IMG/VR virus record: IMGVR_UViG_3300001097_001238
Location: 1 to 24,281 of that record
Length of the DNA: 24,281 nucleotides
Direction: 5' to 3' (one strand)
DNA from: a virus
Both the position numbers and the translations under genes were made by a program. The notes beneath the pieces are model-generated. The model made no database searches. It worked only from the letters and a program-made list of their open reading frames with translations, and was not told where the DNA came from. Positions 2,661 through 18,655 of the stretch are shown here, piece after piece. Each line of letters starts with the position of its first letter. Within the stretch, counting starts at the first letter, position 1.

Positions 2661-2733
2661 GCCCATATGGTGAAACGGTAAACACAACAGGTTTAAGCCC
2701 TGTACACTGTCGGTTCGACTCCGACTATGGGTA
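2661..2733 (+). tRNA. tRNA-Leu (TAA) with a short variable loop
   Basis: GCCCATA/TATGGGT acceptor, a Leu-like D arm TGGTGAAACGGTAAACAC, stem ACAGG/CCTGT with loop TTTAAGC (TAA), and T arm GTCGG-TTCGACT-CCGAC. Only about five bases separate the anticodon and T stems, whereas bacterial Leu tRNAs carry a long variable arm, as the Leu(TAG) gene at 7986 does. Confidence 0.82.
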
Positions 2734-2797
2734 CAATATTAGTCATTGACGTTTATTAACGCTATGATACACGAGGGTTCGAACCCCTCCACCTCCA

Positions 2798-2981
2798 CTA
2801 TGAGAAGTGGACCAAAATTTCTGACCCTTTTTAAAAGTCAGGACTTAGGGTACTATTTAATTCGTATGCTCTTTAACCATGTGTTAATAGAGTGCTGATG
2901 GAACTTATGGTTTCCTCAATTGTTTATTTTACCAACGGTAAAATACTGGTTTTTGTGGTTGGACCTTATCAACCACGTCGA
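2798..2981 (+). other. intervening segment of the permuted tmRNA
   Basis: This segment links the encoded 3' end of the tmRNA to its 5' end and would be cut out. It contains a stem CTGAC/GTCAG, a stem ACGGTAAA-type half site near 2935, and GTGGTTGG facing CCAACC-like bases (GGTTGGACCTTATCAACC) just before the mature 5' end. At about 184 bases it is long compared with what I recall for bacterial permuted tmRNA genes. No coding region is seen. Confidence 0.6.
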
Positions 2982-3040
2982 GGGGGTGACTTGGATTTGA
3001 CATTGTAATCGTAAGTAGAAAGAGATTGATATTAAAGATA

Positions 3041-3067
3041 AGTAACAATTATCAACTGGCAGCATAG
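3041..3067 (+). other. tmRNA tag reading frame, ...SNNYQLAA-stop
   Basis: The codons read Ser-Asn-Asn-Tyr-Gln-Leu-Ala-Ala-TAG. The tag of Bacteroidota tmRNAs is typically GENNYALAA, so NNYxLAA is conserved, including the terminal degron. The resume codon is not certain; ATA at 3038 could precede Ser. The stop is followed by TC, as in cellular tmRNAs. Confidence 0.75.
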
Positions 3068-3134
3068 TCGCTGTTGAGTTTTCTATTTCAAGGAAACAGA
3101 AGATTCACGTCTCCCGGAACGTTATTCGGGAAAT

Positions 3135-3207
3135 GCCCTCATAGCATAAATGGAAATGCAAGATCCTTCTAAGGTCTCGATTGGTGGTTCGAATCCACCT
3201 GGGGGTA
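3135..3207 (+). tRNA. tRNA-Arg (TCT)
   Basis: GCCCTCA pairs with TGGGGGT including two G-U. The D stem is GCA/TGC. The stem AGATC/GGTCT holds loop CTTCTAA, giving TCT. The T arm GGTGG-TTCGAAT-CCACC is perfect. It begins directly after the tmRNA coding part, so both are probably cut from one transcript. Confidence 0.88.
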
Positions 3208-3280
3208 CAAAATTAAATACGAATAAATTAGGATATTGCATTTCCATTTCGTACATTTGCAATGTAATAAAAAAGATACG
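3186..3280 (+). repeat. 95-base direct repeat, copy 1
   Basis: From GGTTCGAATCC to AAAGATACG this matches 5132-5226 with a single C/T difference (3254 against 5200). The repeat joins the T arm and 3' end of tRNA-Arg(TCT) to a promoter and leader. Copy 2 follows a homing endonuclease gene and a tRNA fragment. Confidence 0.92.
3228..3259 (+). promoter_or_regulatory. phage promoter, TACATTTG box
   Basis: TTAGGATAT (3228-3236) lies 24 bases upstream of TACATTTG (3252-3259), an exact match to the Bacteroidota TAnnTTTG box. The conserved leader CAATGTAATAAAAAAG follows. It drives the gene at 3283. Confidence 0.78.
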
Positions 3281-4459: not shown

Positions 4460-5098
4460 ATGAATTGTAAATATTGTAATATTGAATATAAACTCAAACG
4501 TGCATTAATTCAACACGAAATACGATGTTATTCAAACCCATCTAAAATTAATACAAATAGATCAGAGGAAACTAAACAGAAAATACGCAATACATTCAAG
4601 GAAAAAAATATCAACAATCAAGTGATATGGAATTCTGAAATGAAATTAAAGGCATCTGAACGTAGTAAAGTTACAAATTTAGAATACTGGAACGATATAA
4701 CACGAAAGAAGCAATCCGATATAATGAGAAAAGTTGTTCGTGATAACCCAGAATCATATTCAAGTAATAATGTAAGTGGTAGAGTTAAAACTATTACATA
4801 TAATGGATTTAAATTAAAAGGAAATTGGGAATTATTGGTTGCAAAATGGTTGGATGATAATAACTATACTTGGACTAATATTTTTGAACCATATGAATAC
4901 AATTGGAATAATTCAATTCATTTATATTTTCCAGATTTTTATGTATATGAATTAAATTTATATATTGAAGTTAAGGGATATCAGAGAGAACGGGATTTAG
5001 CAAAATGGAAATCTTTATCAAATTTAATAATAATAAAAAAATCAGAAATAACCCATATTAAAAATAATACATACAATATAAATCGCGTTAAGGTGTAA
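4460..5098 (+). CDS. zinc-finger PD-(D/E)XK homing endonuclease
   Basis: A 212-residue putative homing endonuclease. Residues Cys3, Cys6, His19 and Cys23 form a finger. Residues 33-95 are charged and helical, with SEETKQKI and ASERSK repeats typical of NUMOD-like DNA-binding segments. The nuclease core has Glu124 in GNWELLV, Asp159 in FPDF and Glu170-Val-Lys172 in YIEVKGY. The architecture is that of the protein at 305, with low direct identity, so the two are related but not recent copies. It interrupts tRNA-like sequence: a tRNA 5' half ends 33 bases before it, and a T arm lies 35 bases after its stop. The target is likely in this tRNA locus (inference). Confidence 0.82.
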   Translation: MNCKYCNIEYKLKRALIQHEIRCYSNPSKINTNRSEETKQKIRNTFKEKNINNQVIWNSEMKLKASERSKVTNLEYWNDITRKKQSDIMRKVVRDNPESYSSNNVSGRVKTITYNGFKLKGNWELLVAKWLDDNNYTWTNIFEPYEYNWNNSIHLYFPDFYVYELNLYIEVKGYQRERDLAKWKSLSNLIIIKKSEITHIKNNTYNINRVKV

Positions 5099-5447: not shown

Positions 5448-5957
5448 ATGAAATATAGACAAACATTACTATTGGATTCAAGTTATTTACCAAAAAATGT
5501 AATTGATTCAGGTCGTGCATTCGTAATATTTATGAAAGGTAATTGTGAAATTGTAAAACACTACCCAAAGAAATTTGGATTGGTTAGAAAAGATGTAGAT
5601 ATTTACAAACCAGCAGTAATACGAATTAAAGAGTATATAAATATTGATTATCATTCCGTTCCATTAAATAGGGATAATATATTTAAAAGAGATAATCACG
5701 AGTGTGTATATTGTGGTCGTAGAGATTTGGATAAAAAATCATTGACAATTGACCACGTTATACCACAATCACATGGTGGTCCAAATACTTGGGAGAATTT
5801 AGTTACGGCTTGTAAAAAATGTAACGGAGAAAAATCCAATTTAACATTATTAGAATATGGTAAAGCAATCCCAAGTCCTAAACGACCACACTATTTAATG
5901 TTAATGAAAAAAGTTGATTATATTCCAAATGAATGGAAAGACTACTTATTCTTTTAA
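5448..5957 (+). CDS. HNH endonuclease, McrA-like family
   Basis: A 169-residue protein of the widespread bacterial and phage HNH family that begins with a segment like LLLDSSYLPKNVIDSGRAF. Zinc ligands are Cys86-x2-Cys89 and Cys122-x2-Cys125. The nuclease core is Ile-Asp102-His103-Val, followed by SHGGPNTWENL with Asn117, and Lys129 after the second knuckle. In this family His103 is the expected general base. Length and motif order are standard and complete. Members occur both as host DNA-processing enzymes and as phage nucleases, so homing is possible but not shown. It is the second gene of the 5245 transcript. Confidence 0.85.
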   Translation: MKYRQTLLLDSSYLPKNVIDSGRAFVIFMKGNCEIVKHYPKKFGLVRKDVDIYKPAVIRIKEYINIDYHSVPLNRDNIFKRDNHECVYCGRRDLDKKSLTIDHVIPQSHGGPNTWENLVTACKKCNGEKSNLTLLEYGKAIPSPKRPHYLMLMKKVDYIPNEWKDYLFF

Positions 5958-8118: not shown

Positions 8119-8580
8119 ATGAGAACAGATATAATAAAACGATATGATGAAATTGTAAATTGGGTTAAACAGCATAAAACTAAAAGTTTTATGTATAATG
8201 AATTAAAATGTCAACCTGAAACATTAGAGTATCATTTAAAAAAACAGAATTTAAATTATAGCGGCAATCAAGGTAGAAAAGGAGAACCATCCTCACTAAA
8301 AATAACAGCAGATGAATTAATCAAACGTGGAAGGGTTGGTGGTTACATCACTTCACACCGTTTACGAATTAAACTCATTGAAGATGGCATAAAAAAAGAT
8401 GAATGTGAAATTTGTAAAATTTCCAAATTTTGGAATAATAATCCAATTTCATTACAATTACATCATGTAGATGGTAATCACAAAAACAATGAAATAAAAA
8501 ATTTACAAATTCTATGTCCTAATTGCCATTCTCAGACTGAAAATTTTTCTGGAAAAGGTAAACGAAAAAAAATAAAATAA
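8119..8580 (+). CDS. HNH endonuclease, homing type
   Basis: A 153-residue protein. Residues 1-45 look like a helix-turn-helix (NWVKQHKTKSFMYNELKCQPETLEYHLKK is spread over two helices). The C-terminal HNH fold has Cys96-x2-Cys99, the core LQLHHVDGN (His115, His116, Asp118, Asn120), Asn128 in KNLQ and Cys133-x2-Cys136-His137-SQT. This LHH-DGN...NLQ-LCPNCHSQT pattern is common in free-standing phage HNH genes near tRNAs and structural genes. It is complete. It stands downstream of tRNA-Leu in the same presumed transcript. Confidence 0.85.
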   Translation: MRTDIIKRYDEIVNWVKQHKTKSFMYNELKCQPETLEYHLKKQNLNYSGNQGRKGEPSSLKITADELIKRGRVGGYITSHRLRIKLIEDGIKKDECEICKISKFWNNNPISLQLHHVDGNHKNNEIKNLQILCPNCHSQTENFSGKGKRKKIK

Positions 8581-11098: not shown

Positions 11099-12718
11099 AT
11101 GTCAAAATTTAACAAAACAAAATTACCAGTTGTACCAACAATGGTAAATGAAATGGGTGAAAAATCTTATGCTTTAAAAGCAAAAGAAGAATTAATTGCA
11201 ACGTGTTTAACAACATTCTTGCAAAAATCATATTACGAATCGGAATCTGAAATCGTAAATAGAATCAAATCTGCGGCAGGGGATGTGGATGAAGATTTCG
11301 TGGCTAAATTGGCTATCTATTTAAGACGTGATGCAAATATGCGTTCCGTAACACACTTACTATCAGGTGAATTAGCACCAAGATTAGCAGGTAAAACATA
11401 TGCATCAAGGTTCTACCAAAAAATAGCACAAAGACCTGATGATATGAGTGAAATATTGGCATACTACTTCTCAAAAGGAAATAGAAAAATTGCCAACTCT
11501 ATTAAAAGAGGTTTCAAATCAAAACTGGAATCTATGGATCCATACCTAATTGATAAATACAAAATGACTAAGAAAGAAATTTCTTTAATTGATTTGGTAA
11601 ACTTAATGCACCCAAAAGGAACACAAAGTAACGCCGAGGCATATAAGAGATTAATGTCTGGTCAAGACTTGGATGGGTTATATAGTACCAAAATTCTTGA
11701 AAAGGAAATGTCTAAAGCAGGTAAAATTGCTAAAGATACCGGTGTTGATGTTAAGGAAACCAAAAAAGAAGCTATTACTTCGGTAGTAGAAAATGTAAAA
11801 GGTATGCCGATGATGAACTTGGTGAGAAACCTAAGAAATATCCTATTGTTAGCACCAGATAAAGTAGATGATGCTGTTGCACAATTAACCACACGTGGTA
11901 AAGTTTTAAATTCTAAACTACTACCTTTCAGATTTGTTTCGGCATATACTGAAATTGAAGCAGTTGGGACTAAATCTTATAATAAATCTGAAATTCAATT
12001 TGAATCTGATGTGCTACCGGATATGAGTGAAATAAAGGATAAAATATTACGAGGTCTTGAAACCGCTTTGGAATATTCTGTTGAAAACATTCCATCATTG
12101 ACAGGTAACACCGCTGTTTTAATTGACCATTCAGGTTCAGTACGTGGAGATAATTATGGTGCATCAAAAGTATCAGCATTTTCAAAAACCACATCAGCAA
12201 TGATTGGAAATCTGTTCGGTTCAATGTTGGCATACTCACAGAGGGATGTTTACGTTGGTTTGTTTGGTGATAGGTTAATCCCTGTACCAATGGACAGAAC
12301 CAGGGGGTTACTTGAACATAATAGTAATTCATTCAAACTGGGTGGATCATGTGGAGGTGGAACTGAAAATGGATTATACATATTCCTTAATGATGTTGTA
12401 AAAAACAAAACCAAAGTTGATAACCTAGTTATATTTTCGGATATGGTTATCGGAAGTGGCGGTAAAGGCGGATGGGATGGATCATCAAGAGCAGGTTTGG
12501 GTTCATTCCAAGAACTGTTTAAAAAATTCAGAGTAGTAAACCCACAATGTAATACCATTAGTGTAGATATGAGACAAACAAGTGGAAAATCGGTATTTGA
12601 TAGATCATTAAACATTCTGCAAATCGCAGGATGGTCAGATAAAATCTTCAACTTAATTGATAGTAACTGTAAAGGTTATGATGCTTTAATAAAGGAAATT
12701 GAATCTATTGAAATTTAA
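11099..12718 (+). CDS. rsr: Ro60/Rsr, TROVE-domain RNA-binding protein
   Basis: A full-length 539-residue Ro60 homologue. Residues about 20-330 form the TROVE HEAT-repeat ring (for example LAIYLRRDANMRSVTHLLSGELA and LVRNLRNILLLAP across the ring). Residues about 335-539 form a von Willebrand A domain with an intact metal site: Asp343-His-Ser345-Gly-Ser347, Thr422 in GGGTENG and Asp448 in FSDM. Ro60 rings bind misfolded or 3'-frayed RNAs in the central hole and Y RNA on the outside. In bacteria Rsr works with PNPase in rRNA and tRNA turnover. Here the likely clients are phage or host structured RNAs. It is the last gene of its operon, followed by a hairpin terminator. No RtcB or PNPase is present in the window. 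Confidence 0.93.
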   Translation: MSKFNKTKLPVVPTMVNEMGEKSYALKAKEELIATCLTTFLQKSYYESESEIVNRIKSAAGDVDEDFVAKLAIYLRRDANMRSVTHLLSGELAPRLAGKTYASRFYQKIAQRPDDMSEILAYYFSKGNRKIANSIKRGFKSKLESMDPYLIDKYKMTKKEISLIDLVNLMHPKGTQSNAEAYKRLMSGQDLDGLYSTKILEKEMSKAGKIAKDTGVDVKETKKEAITSVVENVKGMPMMNLVRNLRNILLLAPDKVDDAVAQLTTRGKVLNSKLLPFRFVSAYTEIEAVGTKSYNKSEIQFESDVLPDMSEIKDKILRGLETALEYSVENIPSLTGNTAVLIDHSGSVRGDNYGASKVSAFSKTTSAMIGNLFGSMLAYSQRDVYVGLFGDRLIPVPMDRTRGLLEHNSNSFKLGGSCGGGTENGLYIFLNDVVKNKTKVDNLVIFSDMVIGSGGKGGWDGSSRAGLGSFQELFKKFRVVNPQCNTISVDMRQTSGKSVFDRSLNILQIAGWSDKIFNLIDSNCKGYDALIKEIESIEI

Positions 12719-13062: not shown

Positions 13063-13755
13063 ATGATACGACTTACATCACTTTTACTTGAAAAAAATAT
13101 AGCTCTTGAACTTGACAAGATGGTCCGAAAGTTCGCTGCATTAAAGAATAAGAACGATGAAAAACATAACATTGATGAACTTACCAAGATAATTAATGCG
13201 CATATTGATGAAATCCAAAATGTTGAAAAGAAATTCAGTAGCATAATTAAAAAGGCATTACCCAAGAAACATTTAAAAGGAAAAGTTAAATTTTTTCATC
13301 AAATAAAAACAATTTCATCTATTGTTAATAAAGTTATTGTTCGTGGAAAAAAATTGGTTGAGTTAACTGATTTAGTTCGTGGTGCAGTATTATTTGATGA
13401 AAAAGAAGATATGGATGAATTTATTAAAAATTTCTCACGGAAAAATAAGTCAATAATAACAGATATTGATAAAAAAACAGGTAAGGGAGATTCATTAGGA
13501 TATTTTGGTAGTACCCATTTTGAATTATCTATTGATGGGTTTGATGTTGAACTACAAATAATGCCAATGCGTCTATGGAATTATAAAGAAGAGGCACACG
13601 GAATTTATGATAAGTGGAGAGATAATTTATCAAACCTACCTAAAGCTGATGCGAGTTTATCAAGAAAACTATTCTCAACCGGTAATCAAAAACGATCTTA
13701 TAAAAAGGAAAGTTATATCAGAGAAAATTACGAAGAAATTAAACATTTCTTTTAA
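13063..13755 (+). CDS. RelA/SpoT-type nucleotidyltransferase-like protein
   Basis: A 230-residue protein. Residues about 72-190 match the synthetase fold of RelA/SpoT: KTISSIVNKV (the R/K-x-SI-x-K segment), LTDLVRGAVLFD (Asp103 and Arg106, the DLxGxR motif), GYFGSTHFEL (Tyr147 and His152, the GYxSxH motif) and VELQIMP (Glu163, the EIQIRT motif), then EEAHGIYDKW. In small alarmone synthetases these residues bind ATP and the acceptor nucleotide. Some relatives pyrophosphorylate tRNA instead, as in toxSAS toxins. The arginine-rich parts are weaker than in RelA, so activity is uncertain. Residues 1-70 are a helical, phage-specific extension starting MIRLTSLLLEK. Confidence 0.72.
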   Translation: MIRLTSLLLEKNIALELDKMVRKFAALKNKNDEKHNIDELTKIINAHIDEIQNVEKKFSSIIKKALPKKHLKGKVKFFHQIKTISSIVNKVIVRGKKLVELTDLVRGAVLFDEKEDMDEFIKNFSRKNKSIITDIDKKTGKGDSLGYFGSTHFELSIDGFDVELQIMPMRLWNYKEEAHGIYDKWRDNLSNLPKADASLSRKLFSTGNQKRSYKKESYIRENYEEIKHFF

Positions 13756-14351: not shown

Positions 14352-16358
14352 ATGAGAAACTTACTATTATTATTGATTATGCTTATTTCGGTAAGTATGT
14401 ATTCACAAGAAGTTGTCCTAATGGACACGATAAGTGTAAATGGTATTCGGGCAGATGTTAAAACCCCCGTATCACAAAAAACCATTACTGCCGCTGATAT
14501 ACAGAGGGTGTATCATGGGCAGGAATTACCAATATTATTAAATACAACACCATCAATCACTTCAAACACCGATGGTGGGCACGTACAAGGATATACTTAT
14601 TTTAGATTGAGGGGGATTGACCAGACACGAATTAACATGACATTAAATGGTGTACCCTTAAATGAACCCGAAGATCAAGGGGTTTACTTTTCTAATTATC
14701 CAAACTTCGCTAAAAATATACAATCATTACAAATACAACGTGGAGTAGGAACTTCTTCAAATGGAGTATCATCTTTTGGTGGCTCAATAAATTTCATCAG
14801 TAAGTTTGGTAGAAAAAATAAAACTGAGGTTGAACTGGAATATGGTTCGTTTAATACAAAACGATTTAATTTTACACATTCAACTGGCTTATCTAAAAAT
14901 GGTAGAGTTTCAGCGTATGTAAACCTAACTGATTTTGAAACAGATGGTTATAAATATCACTCCGGGAACGATGGTCGTTCTGCCTTTATAGGTGGGGCAT
15001 ATTATGGAGATACATACACATTAAAGTTTACCGGCTTTACTGGCAATTCGCACAATCAAATGAGTTGGCTCCCCGTTTCAGAAATTGATATTGCAGATGA
15101 CCCCCGTACAAACTATAATCACGAAAATGCTGATGATAATTTTTCACAAACATTGGCAATGTTAGAATATAAGAAACGGTTTAATTCTGAAAATACATTA
15201 AGTACAACTGTATTTTATAATAGATTAGATGGTGAGTGGGATTTATATGTAGGTGATATGTTGAATTTTGGCTTGGGTTCAAATTTTTACGGTATGGTTG
15301 GAAACTATAATTATACACCTGAAAACTATGATATAAATTTGGGTATTAGTACAAACAGATATGATAGAAATCATACAATGTCATTTCCACTTGAAAATTT
15401 AGATTTAGATTTTAAATGGTACGATAATACGGGATTTAAAAATGAATATAGTGGATATCTAAAAGTAAAACGAGATATTGATATTCTTACTGTTTATGGT
15501 GATTTACAATACCGTTATGTAACATTTAAATATGATGGTGATGTTGAAATGGAAGCACAAGATTGGTCATTCCTAAATCCCAAAGTTGGTTTAATGTTTA
15601 ATTTAAATAAAGAAACCAATTTCTACGCATCTTTAGGATTATCACATAGAGAGCCAACCCGTTCTGATATGTTCGGTTCATATGATAGGGATGAAAACGG
15701 TAAAATTTTAAGTTATATAAAGGGAGGTGGACTTAATTCTGGAGCAGATAATTTAGAAGGGTTAATACCCGTTATACCAGAACGAGTAATAGATTATGAA
15801 GTTGGTATAAATCAAAAAATGAAAGATTTTACATTACAAGGAAACTTCTACTATATGGATTTTAAAAATGAAATTACATTATTAGGTTCTTTGGGTTCAT
15901 ATGGATTACAACAATTCGGTAACGTAGAGCAGAGTTATAGAATGGGATTGGAACTTGATGTTGCATACAATCTTAATAAAAATGTAACATTGAAATATAA
16001 TGGAAATCTTTCAGAGAATAAAATTACAGATCAGGGAATTTCATTTGAACCACTATATACACCAACCGCAATACAAAATTTATCCATTAACTTACACAAA
16101 AATGGGATATTTTTAGAATTAAGTGGAAAGCACCATAATGAATCATATTTAGATTTCTCTAATGAAAATATAACACCATCATTTGTAATCACTAATGCAC
16201 TTATAGGAATTGAAACCGATTCATATGGATTTAAAGTATCGGTACTGAATGTATTTAATACTGAATACTTTACTAATGGTTATATGGTTGGCGGGGTAAG
16301 ACACTTTTATGTTAATGCACCAACAAGTGCTTACGGAACATTAACTTATAAATTTTAA
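14352..16358 (+). CDS. TonB-dependent outer-membrane receptor
   Basis: A complete 668-residue receptor. Residues 1-18 are a signal peptide (MRNLLLLLIMLISVSMYS). A plug domain covers about 20-160, with FRLRGIDQTRINMTLNGVPL, NEPEDQGVYFSNYPNFAKNI and the LQIQRGVGTSSNG...FGGSINF motif. A 22-strand-type barrel of aromatic-rich strands follows, ending YGTLTYKF with the C-terminal Phe needed for outer-membrane assembly. It lacks the N-terminal carboxypeptidase-like domain of SusC types and resembles BtuB/FecA-type receptors in size. It would use host TonB-ExbBD. It is the first gene of a run leading to pnuC and nadR, which suggests a nicotinamide-nucleoside or related precursor as ligand. Being the receptor of a competing phage is an alternative. 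Confidence 0.93.
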   Translation: MRNLLLLLIMLISVSMYSQEVVLMDTISVNGIRADVKTPVSQKTITAADIQRVYHGQELPILLNTTPSITSNTDGGHVQGYTYFRLRGIDQTRINMTLNGVPLNEPEDQGVYFSNYPNFAKNIQSLQIQRGVGTSSNGVSSFGGSINFISKFGRKNKTEVELEYGSFNTKRFNFTHSTGLSKNGRVSAYVNLTDFETDGYKYHSGNDGRSAFIGGAYYGDTYTLKFTGFTGNSHNQMSWLPVSEIDIADDPRTNYNHENADDNFSQTLAMLEYKKRFNSENTLSTTVFYNRLDGEWDLYVGDMLNFGLGSNFYGMVGNYNYTPENYDINLGISTNRYDRNHTMSFPLENLDLDFKWYDNTGFKNEYSGYLKVKRDIDILTVYGDLQYRYVTFKYDGDVEMEAQDWSFLNPKVGLMFNLNKETNFYASLGLSHREPTRSDMFGSYDRDENGKILSYIKGGGLNSGADNLEGLIPVIPERVIDYEVGINQKMKDFTLQGNFYYMDFKNEITLLGSLGSYGLQQFGNVEQSYRMGLELDVAYNLNKNVTLKYNGNLSENKITDQGISFEPLYTPTAIQNLSINLHKNGIFLELSGKHHNESYLDFSNENITPSFVITNALIGIETDSYGFKVSVLNVFNTEYFTNGYMVGGVRHFYVNAPTSAYGTLTYKF

Positions 16359-16822: not shown

Positions 16823-16866
16823 AACTAACAGGGAAGTGTAAAGAAGATTTTAACAAAATTATATGA
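16819..16866 (+). CDS. 15-residue leader peptide coupled to pnuC
   Basis: The frame reads MKLTGKCKEDFNKII and stops within ATGA, whose ATG starts pnuC. The first 33 bases equal the start of the gene at 16362. It is either a truncated copy of that gene or a functional leader that delivers ribosomes to pnuC. ATGA links on both sides make a translationally coupled chain from 16362 to pnuC. Confidence 0.5.
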   Translation: MKLTGKCKEDFNKII

Positions 16867-17423
16867 ACTTTAATTATTTAGAAATAGCTGCCGTTATTTC
16901 CACACTATTATGTGTAATACTATTAAACAAGAAATATGTTTTAGGGTGGCCTGTCGGCATATTGGCTGCTGGATTATACATTTTGGTTTTTCAAAATCAA
17001 AACCTATATGCCCAATCATCATTACAATTGATATTCATAATACAGTCTGCATATGGTTGGTACTTATGGAATGGTGATAGTGGTCAAGAAATAAAAATAG
17101 TCAAAATAGATTATTGGATTTTATTTACTCACATTTTATTGGTAGTGGTAATTTCACTTTCTATATATCCGTTAATAGGGGATCTAGGTGGGGAGAATTC
17201 CTTTTTAGATATTTTAACAACATTACTTGCACTACTCGCTAACTACTATTTGAGTAAAAAAATATTACAATCTTGGTTGGTTTGGGGATTAGTGGATGTT
17301 TTATTATTAGGATTATTTGCCATGTTCGGATTATGGTGGTCGTTTGGATTATACATCATATTAACAATTATCGCAATAAACGCATATTTAACTTGGAATA
17401 ACGATTATGAAAAACAAATTTGA
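16863..17423 (+). CDS. pnuC: PnuC, nicotinamide riboside transporter
   Basis: A 186-residue, seven-helix inner-membrane protein of the PnuC family. Diagnostic segments are GWPVGILAAGLYILVFQNQN, LYAQSSLQLIFIIQSAYGWY-LW and SWLVWGLVDVLLL. The conserved Trp and Asn/Gln residues of the substrate site are present. PnuC moves nicotinamide riboside by facilitated diffusion, trapped inside by phosphorylation. Relatives transport thiamine or riboflavin, but the NadR two genes downstream points to nicotinamide riboside. The start at 16863 overlaps the leader stop; the end overlaps the next gene by 17 bases. Confidence 0.92.
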   Translation: MNFNYLEIAAVISTLLCVILLNKKYVLGWPVGILAAGLYILVFQNQNLYAQSSLQLIFIIQSAYGWYLWNGDSGQEIKIVKIDYWILFTHILLVVVISLSIYPLIGDLGGENSFLDILTTLLALLANYYLSKKILQSWLVWGLVDVLLLGLFAMFGLWWSFGLYIILTIIAINAYLTWNNDYEKQI

Positions 17424-17655
17424 CCTTAGAGAATTATCTAAAAAACCTATTCTACGAAACGATCAAGCATTGGAATTTATGAATAAAATGACAGATGAAG
17501 AAATCATAGAATATGATAAATCAGTAGAATTACTCTTAGATAAGAGGGGAGTTCCTGAATACTTTCCTGATAGAAATTCTGCACGATTATCACAAAATAT
17601 AGATGATGAAATTTTATATACAATATTAAAACAAGCACTTGATGAAAAAATTTAA
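17407..17655 (+). CDS. small hypothetical protein between pnuC and nadR
   Basis: An 82-residue acidic protein starting MKNKFDLRELSKKPILRNDQ. It overlaps pnuC by 17 bases and nadR by 14. Predicted helices (ALEFMNKMTDEEIIEYDKSVELLLD and DDEILYTILKQALDEKI regions) suggest a small helical bundle. Its place inside the NAD genes hints at a linked role, but nothing in the sequence shows one. Confidence 0.6.
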   Translation: MKNKFDLRELSKKPILRNDQALEFMNKMTDEEIIEYDKSVELLLDKRGVPEYFPDRNSARLSQNIDDEILYTILKQALDEKI

Positions 17656-18655
17656 GCATGGTATGGTACTTGGAAAGTTTTTTCCGCCACACAACGGACA
17701 CCTATACTTAATTGAAGAAGCATTTAAACAATGTGAAACAGTTGATGTGTTTGTATGTTCATTAAAGAGCGAATTCCCAGCAGGAGAAATCCGAACACTT
17801 TGGATGCATGAAATTTATAAGGATAATTACGATATATCCATTATACCTGTTAATGATGAACTGCCACAAACTCCAGAGGAATATGGTGATTTTGATGGAT
17901 TTTATAAAATTTGGACAGACGTGGTTAATTCAAGAACTAAAAATTTAGATGTAATATTCACATCAGAGAGTTATGGTGATGAATTTGCCGAAAAACTTGG
18001 TATAGAGCACGTTTTAGTTGATAGTGAACGGCTAACATACCCAGTATCAGGAACATCCGTTAGGAACGAGCCTGTTGAGAACTGGGAGTATATACCACAG
18101 GCAGTAAGGGGGTTTTTCAAAAAACGGGTTGTAGTATTAGGTCCTGAATCAACTGGTAAAACTACGTTGGTTTCAAATTTGAGTAAGCATTTTGATGGGG
18201 ATGTGGTTCACGAATTTGGTAGAGATTATACCGATGATATTCCTGGTCCGCAATTGGTAACATCTGATTTTGATGAAATTGCAATCGCACATGATATGTT
18301 CATATATCAGGTAACTAATCAGACTGGAACTAAACCCATGGTATTTATAGATACCGATGCAATCACTACTAAATTATTTGGTGAAATGTATTTAGGTGAT
18401 GATTTTCATTCTAAAATAATTGATGATATAATTGATGATCAAGATTTTGATTTGGCACTTGTTTGTAATATTGATGTACCTTGGGTTGATGATGGCACAC
18501 GAGATTTTCCACTGGAAGGTGATAGGCAACGGCACTTGGATAAAATTATAAAGGAACTTGAATCAAATGGACAACCATATAAAATGATTTATGGGGATTA
18601 TGATAAACGATTGGCTATGGCAATACGATATGTGGAAGAAGTTAGCAAAAAATAA
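17642..18655 (+). CDS. nadR: NadR, NMN adenylyltransferase / ribosylnicotinamide kinase
   Basis: A 337-residue bifunctional enzyme. Residues 1-155 are the nucleotidyltransferase domain with GKFFPPHNGH (11-20) and the closing SGTSVR (136-141). Residues 160-337 are the kinase, with P-loop GPESTGKTT from 167, EFGRDY and DTD segments and FPLEGDRQRH. The kinase turns nicotinamide riboside into NMN; the first domain turns NMN plus ATP into NAD+. The N-terminal DNA-binding domain of enteric NadR is absent, so no repressor role is expected. ATG 17642 is preferred over an in-frame TTG three bases earlier. With pnuC it makes a complete salvage route, closed by a terminator. Confidence 0.94.
   Translation: MKKFKHGMVLGKFFPPHNGHLYLIEEAFKQCETVDVFVCSLKSEFPAGEIRTLWMHEIYKDNYDISIIPVNDELPQTPEEYGDFDGFYKIWTDVVNSRTKNLDVIFTSESYGDEFAEKLGIEHVLVDSERLTYPVSGTSVRNEPVENWEYIPQAVRGFFKKRVVVLGPESTGKTTLVSNLSKHFDGDVVHEFGRDYTDDIPGPQLVTSDFDEIAIAHDMFIYQVTNQTGTKPMVFIDTDAITTKLFGEMYLGDDFHSKIIDDIIDDQDFDLALVCNIDVPWVDDGTRDFPLEGDRQRHLDKIIKELESNGQPYKMIYGDYDKRLAMAIRYVEEVSKK

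Follow-up and report, generated by a model that had tools for sequence, protein, structure and literature searches.

What does a phage gain, and from where, when its tmRNA gene lies with its 3′ half in front of its 5′ half? We address this for one locus in a viral DNA stretch of 24,281 nucleotides (IMG/VR record IMGVR_UViG_3300001097_001238, positions 1 to 24,281; hereafter the window), in which the 3′ half of a tmRNA (2735-2797) precedes the 5′ half and tag (2982-3067) in gene order, bracketed by tRNA-Leu and tRNA-Arg (Table 1).

A tmRNA gene with its halves in permuted order

Direct reading of the sequence bears out the anatomy that the original prediction had drawn. The coordinates that it gave for the T arm, the 3′ acceptor strand and the 5′ end are correct; the claimed pairing of the two acceptor strands is seen at all seven positions (GGGGGTG/CACCTCC), G3-U70 included; and a tag frame does lie 3′ of the tmRNA 5′ end, reading ATA AGT AAC AAT TAT CAA CTG GCA GCA TAG from 3038 to 3067. 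The G3-U70 pair is the main alanine identity element of tRNA-Ala and tmRNA. Among features by which tmRNAs are recognized, the window has the TTCRA T-loop, the GG..TTGAC D-loop element and the P2 helix, and has no room for the pseudoknot PK1 upstream of the tag; CCA is not encoded after A73 (2797). The locus is very probably a circularly permuted ssrA of a T4-like Bacteroidota phage, the RNA of which would mature to two pieces and rescue ribosomes with host factors.

Table 1. Features of the permuted tmRNA locus and the adjoining tRNA genes, in window coordinates.
Feature	Position	Strand	Basis
tRNA-Leu(taa)	2661-2734	+	ARAGORN, Rfam tRNA
Acceptor piece (tmRNA 3′ half): outer-helix strand, P2 3′ strand, T arm, 3′ acceptor strand, A73	2735-2797	+	Sequence, RF04321 alignment, covariation
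Outer helix 5′ strand, AATATTAGTC, partner 3024-3033	2735-2744	+	Consensus and unaided folds
P2 3′ strand, TATGAT, partner ATTGTA 3002-3007	2763-2768	+	Covariation
T arm, GAGGG-TTCGAAC-CCCTC	2773-2789	+	Sequence; stem covaries in seven orthologs
3′ acceptor strand, CACCTCC (2790-2796; U70 = 2794), and discriminator A73 (2797)	2790-2797	+	Sequence
Intervening sequence, 184 nt, predicted multi-hairpin, presumed excised	2798-2981	+	Folding; 20-492 nt in orthologs
Coding piece (tmRNA 5′ half)	2982-3134	+	Sequence; R1 match includes 2911-3067 (model R1 was built with the window sequence included)
5′ acceptor strand, GGGGGTG, G1 = 2982, G3 pairs with U70 as G-U	2982-2988	+	Sequence
P2 5′ strand, ATTGTA	3002-3007	+	Covariation
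Outer helix 3′ strand, GATTGATATT, ending 4 nt 5′ of the resume codon, at the expected PK1 site	3024-3033	+	Folding
Tag frame, ISNNYQLAA and TAG, resume codon ATA	3038-3067	+	In register with six orthologs
Post-tag hairpin of the coding piece	3073-3107	+	Consensus fold with covariation
Terminal hairpin of the coding piece, ending 3 nt before tRNA-Arg	3112-3131	+	Consensus fold, covariation
tRNA-Arg(tct)	3135-3208	+	ARAGORN, Rfam; 3′ of the tmRNA in all seven orthologs

The Rfam search that had been proposed as a check gave a hit below threshold: under relaxed settings, RF04321 (tmRNA_permuted) aligns in permuted order to 2738-3030, and its score of 35.3 bits (E 2e-5) falls short of the gathering cut-off of 47 bits, probably due to the 184-nt intervening sequence. 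In related phages, genes with shorter intervening sequences are over the cut-off (60.0 bits in contig G007 and 61.8 bits in G009). The Rfam scan returned no tmRNA family at its gathering cut-off in the window, the one-piece RF00023 included, and ARAGORN reported no tmRNA at the locus, only the flanking tRNA-Leu and tRNA-Arg. The unaided fold of 2735-3134 contains the T arm, the outer helix and, bridging the intervening sequence, the acceptor stem of 7 bp; its minimum free energy is −110.1, versus −91.7 ± 5.8 in shuffles (z −3.2).

Conservation in related phages

The TROVE-domain protein of the window led to four related contigs (75-82% identity), of which those carrying loci L012 and L014 span the tRNA cluster and have the same tmRNA arrangement immediately 5′ of tRNA-Arg(tct). 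Further orthologs were found through MCP (major head protein) relatives of the contig of L014 (L131) and through a pattern for the acceptor piece (L138, L141 and L143); a sequence pattern with a gap of 170-200 nt gave no matches. The resulting set comprises seven genes, that of the window and these six, each with tRNA-Arg(tct) immediately 3′. Their acceptor pieces measure 63-64 nt, their coding pieces 153-159 nt (207 in L131) and their intervening sequences 20-492 nt.

In all seven the acceptor stem pairs at seven of seven positions despite differing sequences (for example, GGGGGTG/CACCTCC, GGGGAGG/CCTCTCC, GGGTCAG/CTGATCC and GGGGCCG/CGGCTCC), with G3-U70 and A73 invariant. Consensus folding of the joined pieces with RNAalifold yields the acceptor stem, the T stem, a long P2 and the outer helix, which joins the 5′ end of the acceptor piece to the segment right before the tag; in the post-tag region, the consensus has two hairpins with covariation. 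Standard pairs fill 95.4% of 280 pair cells, slid controls being at most 49.6% paired, and double (compensatory) changes occur in 15 of 40 pairs, compared with a shuffled mean of 7.8. The outer helix is 98% paired but variable on one side only across the T4-like clade, and is backed more by constancy than by covariation. The aligned sequences and their covariation show that the halves are permuted, that the tRNA-like domain is intact and, like the tag, conserved, that tRNAs adjoin the gene and that PK1 has too little space. On these comparative grounds, the six orthologs from related contigs settle that a genuine permuted tmRNA gene is present at the locus.

The longest intervening sequence, 492 nt at L012:2356-2847 (IMGVR_UViG_3300009408_000003), contains an open frame with similarity to endonuclease VII/HNH proteins (PHROG E 6e-12) that extends into the tmRNA 5′ half.

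In register, the tags read ISNNYQLAA (window), INSNLKLAA, VKDNFAIAA (twice), IKFNTLQVAA, VKDNFAFAA and ANGNFAIAA, and a frame of 9-10 codons with an AA end and stop is kept in all seven. The tag of the window has been called Bacteroidota-like. Its end is of the tmRNA type, a hydrophobic residue followed by Ala-Ala and stop (LAA), but it begins with Ile, whereas Gly, Ala or Asp comes first in the host one-piece tags of the genes sampled. Several points count against our best explanation: ATA as an unusual resume codon, the RF04321 score under the cut-off, the missing ARAGORN call, the lack of room for PK1, the want of a phage hallmark gene in the window and the one-sided variation of the outer helix. 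A GGC resume codon at 3058, considered by analogy with the crAss-like phage cr272_1, was rejected: its frame stays open into tRNA-Arg with no AA end, and the orthologs set the tag in another frame, 20 nt earlier.

The phages and their hosts

The 180-kb contig of L014 (G007) encodes a T4-like terminase (TerL), portal, MCP, sheath and baseplate, as well as a T4-like clamp loader, DNA polymerase and ribonucleotide reductase. The contig of L012 has TerL, portal and MCP in common with it (44-52% identity), and that of L143 the clamp loader, polymerase and exonuclease (39-45%). No phage hallmark gene was found in the 24-kb window fragment, which is placed in the T4-like clade by its TROVE protein, tRNA order and tmRNA; by these sequence links, it probably belongs to a large T4-like phage infecting Bacteroidota. 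The Bacteroidota connection drawn in the original prediction finds support in the isolate nearest to the contig of L014 by MCP, Flavobacterium phage immuto (53%), and in the mostly Bacteroidota homologs of a TonB-dependent receptor of the window.

This receptor (14352-16358) is complete, with plug and barrel; its best homolog (49%) is in a metagenome-assembled genome labelled Deltaproteobacteria, followed by one of Flammeovirga (41%). The TROVE/Ro60-like protein (11099-12718) shares 52-55% identity with proteins encoded by crAss-like cr111_1 and by gut phage csAssE-Sib. A crAss-like placement of the window through this gene (55% to cr111_1) is contradicted by the ortholog contigs: none of the crAss structural and replication genes tested against G005 and G007 matched, and GroEL alone did.

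Bacteroidota hosts have the one-piece form, as had been supposed: RF00023 is over its cut-off in 362 of the 395 genomes sampled. RF04321 is over its cut-off in one of the 395, and that genome has a one-piece gene too. Its permuted tmRNA (L186:9745-10142, minus strand; tag GKVIQMNNAPVRLAA) is on a 1.6-Mb contig, beside tRNA-Met and tRNA-Ile among phage-like genes, and is probably part of a prophage. No SmpB gene was found in the 17 phage records searched, so the SmpB of the host would be used.

Comparison with other tmRNA genes

The window is not a lone case. Permuted tmRNAs that ARAGORN already calls are present in the crAss-like phages cr10_1 and cr272_1, in Chryseobacterium phage MA9V-3 and in L018; that of L008 was recognized by manual reading. 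RF04321 is over its cut-off in cr10_1, MA9V-3, L018 and L008, and below it in cr272_1 (40 bits). The GenBank features of the cr10_1, cr272_1 and MA9V-3 genes say merely tmRNA or SsrA. These three share with the window the permuted order, a resume codon close to G1 (62-66 nt) and a match to R1; they differ in that their tags begin with Gly and, for cr10_1 and cr272_1, in belonging to the order Crassvirales, unrelated to the T4-like clade. We found no discussion of permuted tmRNA in Bacteroidota phages in the literature searched, which lay outside subscription journals and supplements, and the tables behind PMC9004378 or PMC11915505 may still list some. The permuted tmRNAs of these phages form a wider set that is apparently undescribed.

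What these genes have in common is a short distance from G1 to the resume codon, 57 nt in the window and 55-66 nt in all 13 permuted genes of the Bacteroidota-phage group (the seven T4-like genes, MA9V-3, cr10_1, cr272_1, L008, L018 and L186). Ten permuted phage tmRNAs whose tags are different have 84-145 nt at this place, Pelagibacter phage Mosig has 79 nt and Caulobacter 82 (PMC1168896). The marine phages Melnitz and Mosig likewise carry a permuted ssrA; the Melnitz gene has been assigned to the alphaproteobacterial lineage (PMC9004378), and that of Mosig differs further in encoding CCA.

One-piece tmRNAs, found in Bacteroidota and in phages G013, G014 and G015 of the same T4-like clade, are alike in tRNA-like domain and function and differ in their linear gene and, for 19 host genes, in a resume codon 93-102 nt from G1. 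In three one-piece tmRNAs of Bacteroidota-type phages (L009:8373-9133, minus strand; L135:1503-1871, minus strand; L005:369-728), the tags are 22 to about 35 amino acids, apparently unusually long.

PK1 matters in E. coli tmRNA. In the T4-like clade there is no room for it, because P2 and the outer helix take up the whole pre-tag strand. Contiguous equivalents of the outer helix, of 8-9 bp, are found in L018 and L186, with no clear equivalent in cr10_1, cr272_1, MA9V-3 and L008, where duplex energies are not better than those of shuffles. The two-piece tmRNAs of alpha- and betaproteobacteria and cyanobacteria (RF04321) resemble the phage genes in having the 3′ half first, an excised intervening sequence, pieces joined at the tRNA-like domain and the tag in the coding piece. 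The phage genes differ from them in the resume-codon distance and missing PK1 space, in the outer helix of the T4-like clade, which stops 4-5 nt before the resume codon, and in pieces that abut tRNAs, with intervening sequences of variable length (20-492 nt). For cyanobacteria, the two-piece structure compared is that given in a review. Two-piece coding RNAs typically contain PK1 and PK2, and plastid tmRNAs have fewer or no pseudoknots, so that PK1 is not strictly defining (PMC3985003).

Origin of the permuted form

Permuted tmRNA genes are known from three main bacterial clades and organelles (PMC11915505), and the original prediction read the present one as an independent permutation. For the Bacteroidota phages we consider this plausible, the chances being about even. 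In its favour, too little sequence precedes the tag to accommodate PK1, which points to a separate lineage. The tRNA-like domain, with 68 columns, is too short for its tree to separate the groups and to demonstrate an independent permutation. In full, the proposal, on which we are evenly divided, is that a further bacterial-type permuted tmRNA lineage arose in Bacteroidota phages independently of the alphaproteobacterial, betaproteobacterial and cyanobacterial ones, with a helix between acceptor and coding pieces replacing PK1 and outer ends made by processing of the adjoining tRNAs, in hosts that have the one-piece form.

The same locus could instead descend from a two-piece ssrA acquired from alpha- or betaproteobacteria, cyanobacteria or their phages, with PK1 lost later, a history that we regard as a real possibility if the lesser one. 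Hosts among the proteobacteria and cyanobacteria have permuted tmRNAs, as do many marine phages (PMC9004378); the 68-column tree is compatible with such a source; and R1 also gives matches of 35-42 bits to other permuted tmRNAs, in the tRNA-like domain. Against acquisition speak the resume-codon distances (55-66 nt in all 13, versus 79-145 in the 11 other permuted phage genes and 82 in Caulobacter), the occurrence of the short distance in unrelated phage groups and the equivalents of the T4-like outer helix in L018 and L186. The absence of PK1 is plausibly a trait of a separate lineage, and its loss after acquisition from a known lineage fits equally.

In the MCP tree, the one-piece phages G013-G015 are placed beside the branch of permuted G007 and G009, and permuted G005 is far off; permuted and one-piece phages are intermixed with weak deep support, and the number of gains is not readable from it. 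The tmRNA form is thus patchy, and gain, loss, replacement and transfer of the tRNA cluster are all possible. In the other MCP relatives tested, mostly fragments, R1 found no permuted tmRNA.

Function and alternative readings of the locus

For the permuted ssrA of the window, we infer transcription, processing, charging, tagging and a benefit to the phage as follows. The tmRNA would be transcribed together with the flanking tRNAs, and host tRNA-maturation enzymes would produce an acceptor piece of 63 nt and a coding piece of 153 nt. The acceptor piece would gain its 5′ end when the 3′ end of tRNA-Leu is processed (the outer helix starts at 2735, right where tRNA-Leu ends), and the coding piece its 3′ end when RNase P cuts at the 5′ end of tRNA-Arg. 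The intervening sequence would be removed at the tmRNA acceptor stem, by RNase P together with 3′ processing, and the two pieces would stay paired through the acceptor stem, P2 and the outer helix. The host would supply CCA, its AlaRS would charge the RNA by way of G3-U70, and its SmpB and EF-Tu would carry it to stalled ribosomes, where translation would resume at ATA 3038 and add ISNNYQLAA as a proteolysis tag. The benefit to the phage would most likely be extra ribosome rescue during infection. Within the sequences compared, function is best supported by the fact that divergent phages conserve the identity elements and the tag.

It is improbable that the RNA acts as a decoy, which would block trans-translation in the host by binding its SmpB or the ribosome. 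The lack of room for PK1 would suit it, phage RNAs can inhibit tmRNA (PMC4131195, PMC11915505) and a decoy role has been suggested for the tRNA-domain-only RNA of mycobacteriophage DS6A (PMC4131195), but a decoy would not need the 9-10-codon tag, stop and AA end that all seven orthologs conserve. Less probable still, and very much so, is a dead remnant of a tmRNA, as the score under the Rfam cut-off and the missing ARAGORN call might suggest, given the compensatory changes, intact tags and synteny kept over seven genomes.

That the locus is a linear one-piece tmRNA with other, better-pairing ends, the case that the original prediction had named against itself, or an assembly artefact, is hardly credible: the flanking gaps (38 nt from tRNA-Leu to the T stem and 67 nt from the tag stop to tRNA-Arg, the latter with no T arm) are too short for a linear form, no model matches one significantly, the RF00023 match at 2501-2800 (20.3 bits) crosses tRNA genes and is comparable to sub-threshold matches of 20-29 bits in tRNA clusters of related records, and the identical permuted order is found in seven separate contigs.

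Surroundings of the locus

Several other features of the window were observed. Between tRNA-Met and tRNA-Leu, a T-arm-like stretch with no called tRNA (2575-2612, gtggagttcgaatctctcc) is possibly a degraded or split tRNA. Genes for endonucleases, HNH and others, lie within the tRNA cluster (305-1033, 4460-5098, 5448-5957 and 8119-8580), which suggests invasion by homing elements. The motif TAYATTTRC-N-ATGTAAT recurs on the plus strand at 3252, 5198, 12782, 13796, 18755 and 20851, and is a possible phage promoter family, though the total of 11 pattern matches exceeds the 6.4 of chance only modestly. A PnuC-like transporter and a NadR-like enzyme near each other (16863-18655) form an NAD salvage pair, and 13063-13755 has weak similarity to the RelA/SpoT domain, below the Pfam cut-off (E 3e-4).

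Discussion

What is new here is a T4-like lineage of permuted tmRNA and the short resume-codon distance common to the Bacteroidota-phage genes. Annotation tools overlook permuted tmRNA genes or fail to flag them as such. One phage clade holds both one-piece and permuted tmRNA genes, and within it the intervening sequence ranges from 20 nt up to one with an endonuclease-like open reading frame. If Bacteroidota phages of unrelated groups do keep a separate, PK1-less form, they would offer a natural experiment on the permutation of ssrA and on the role of PK1.
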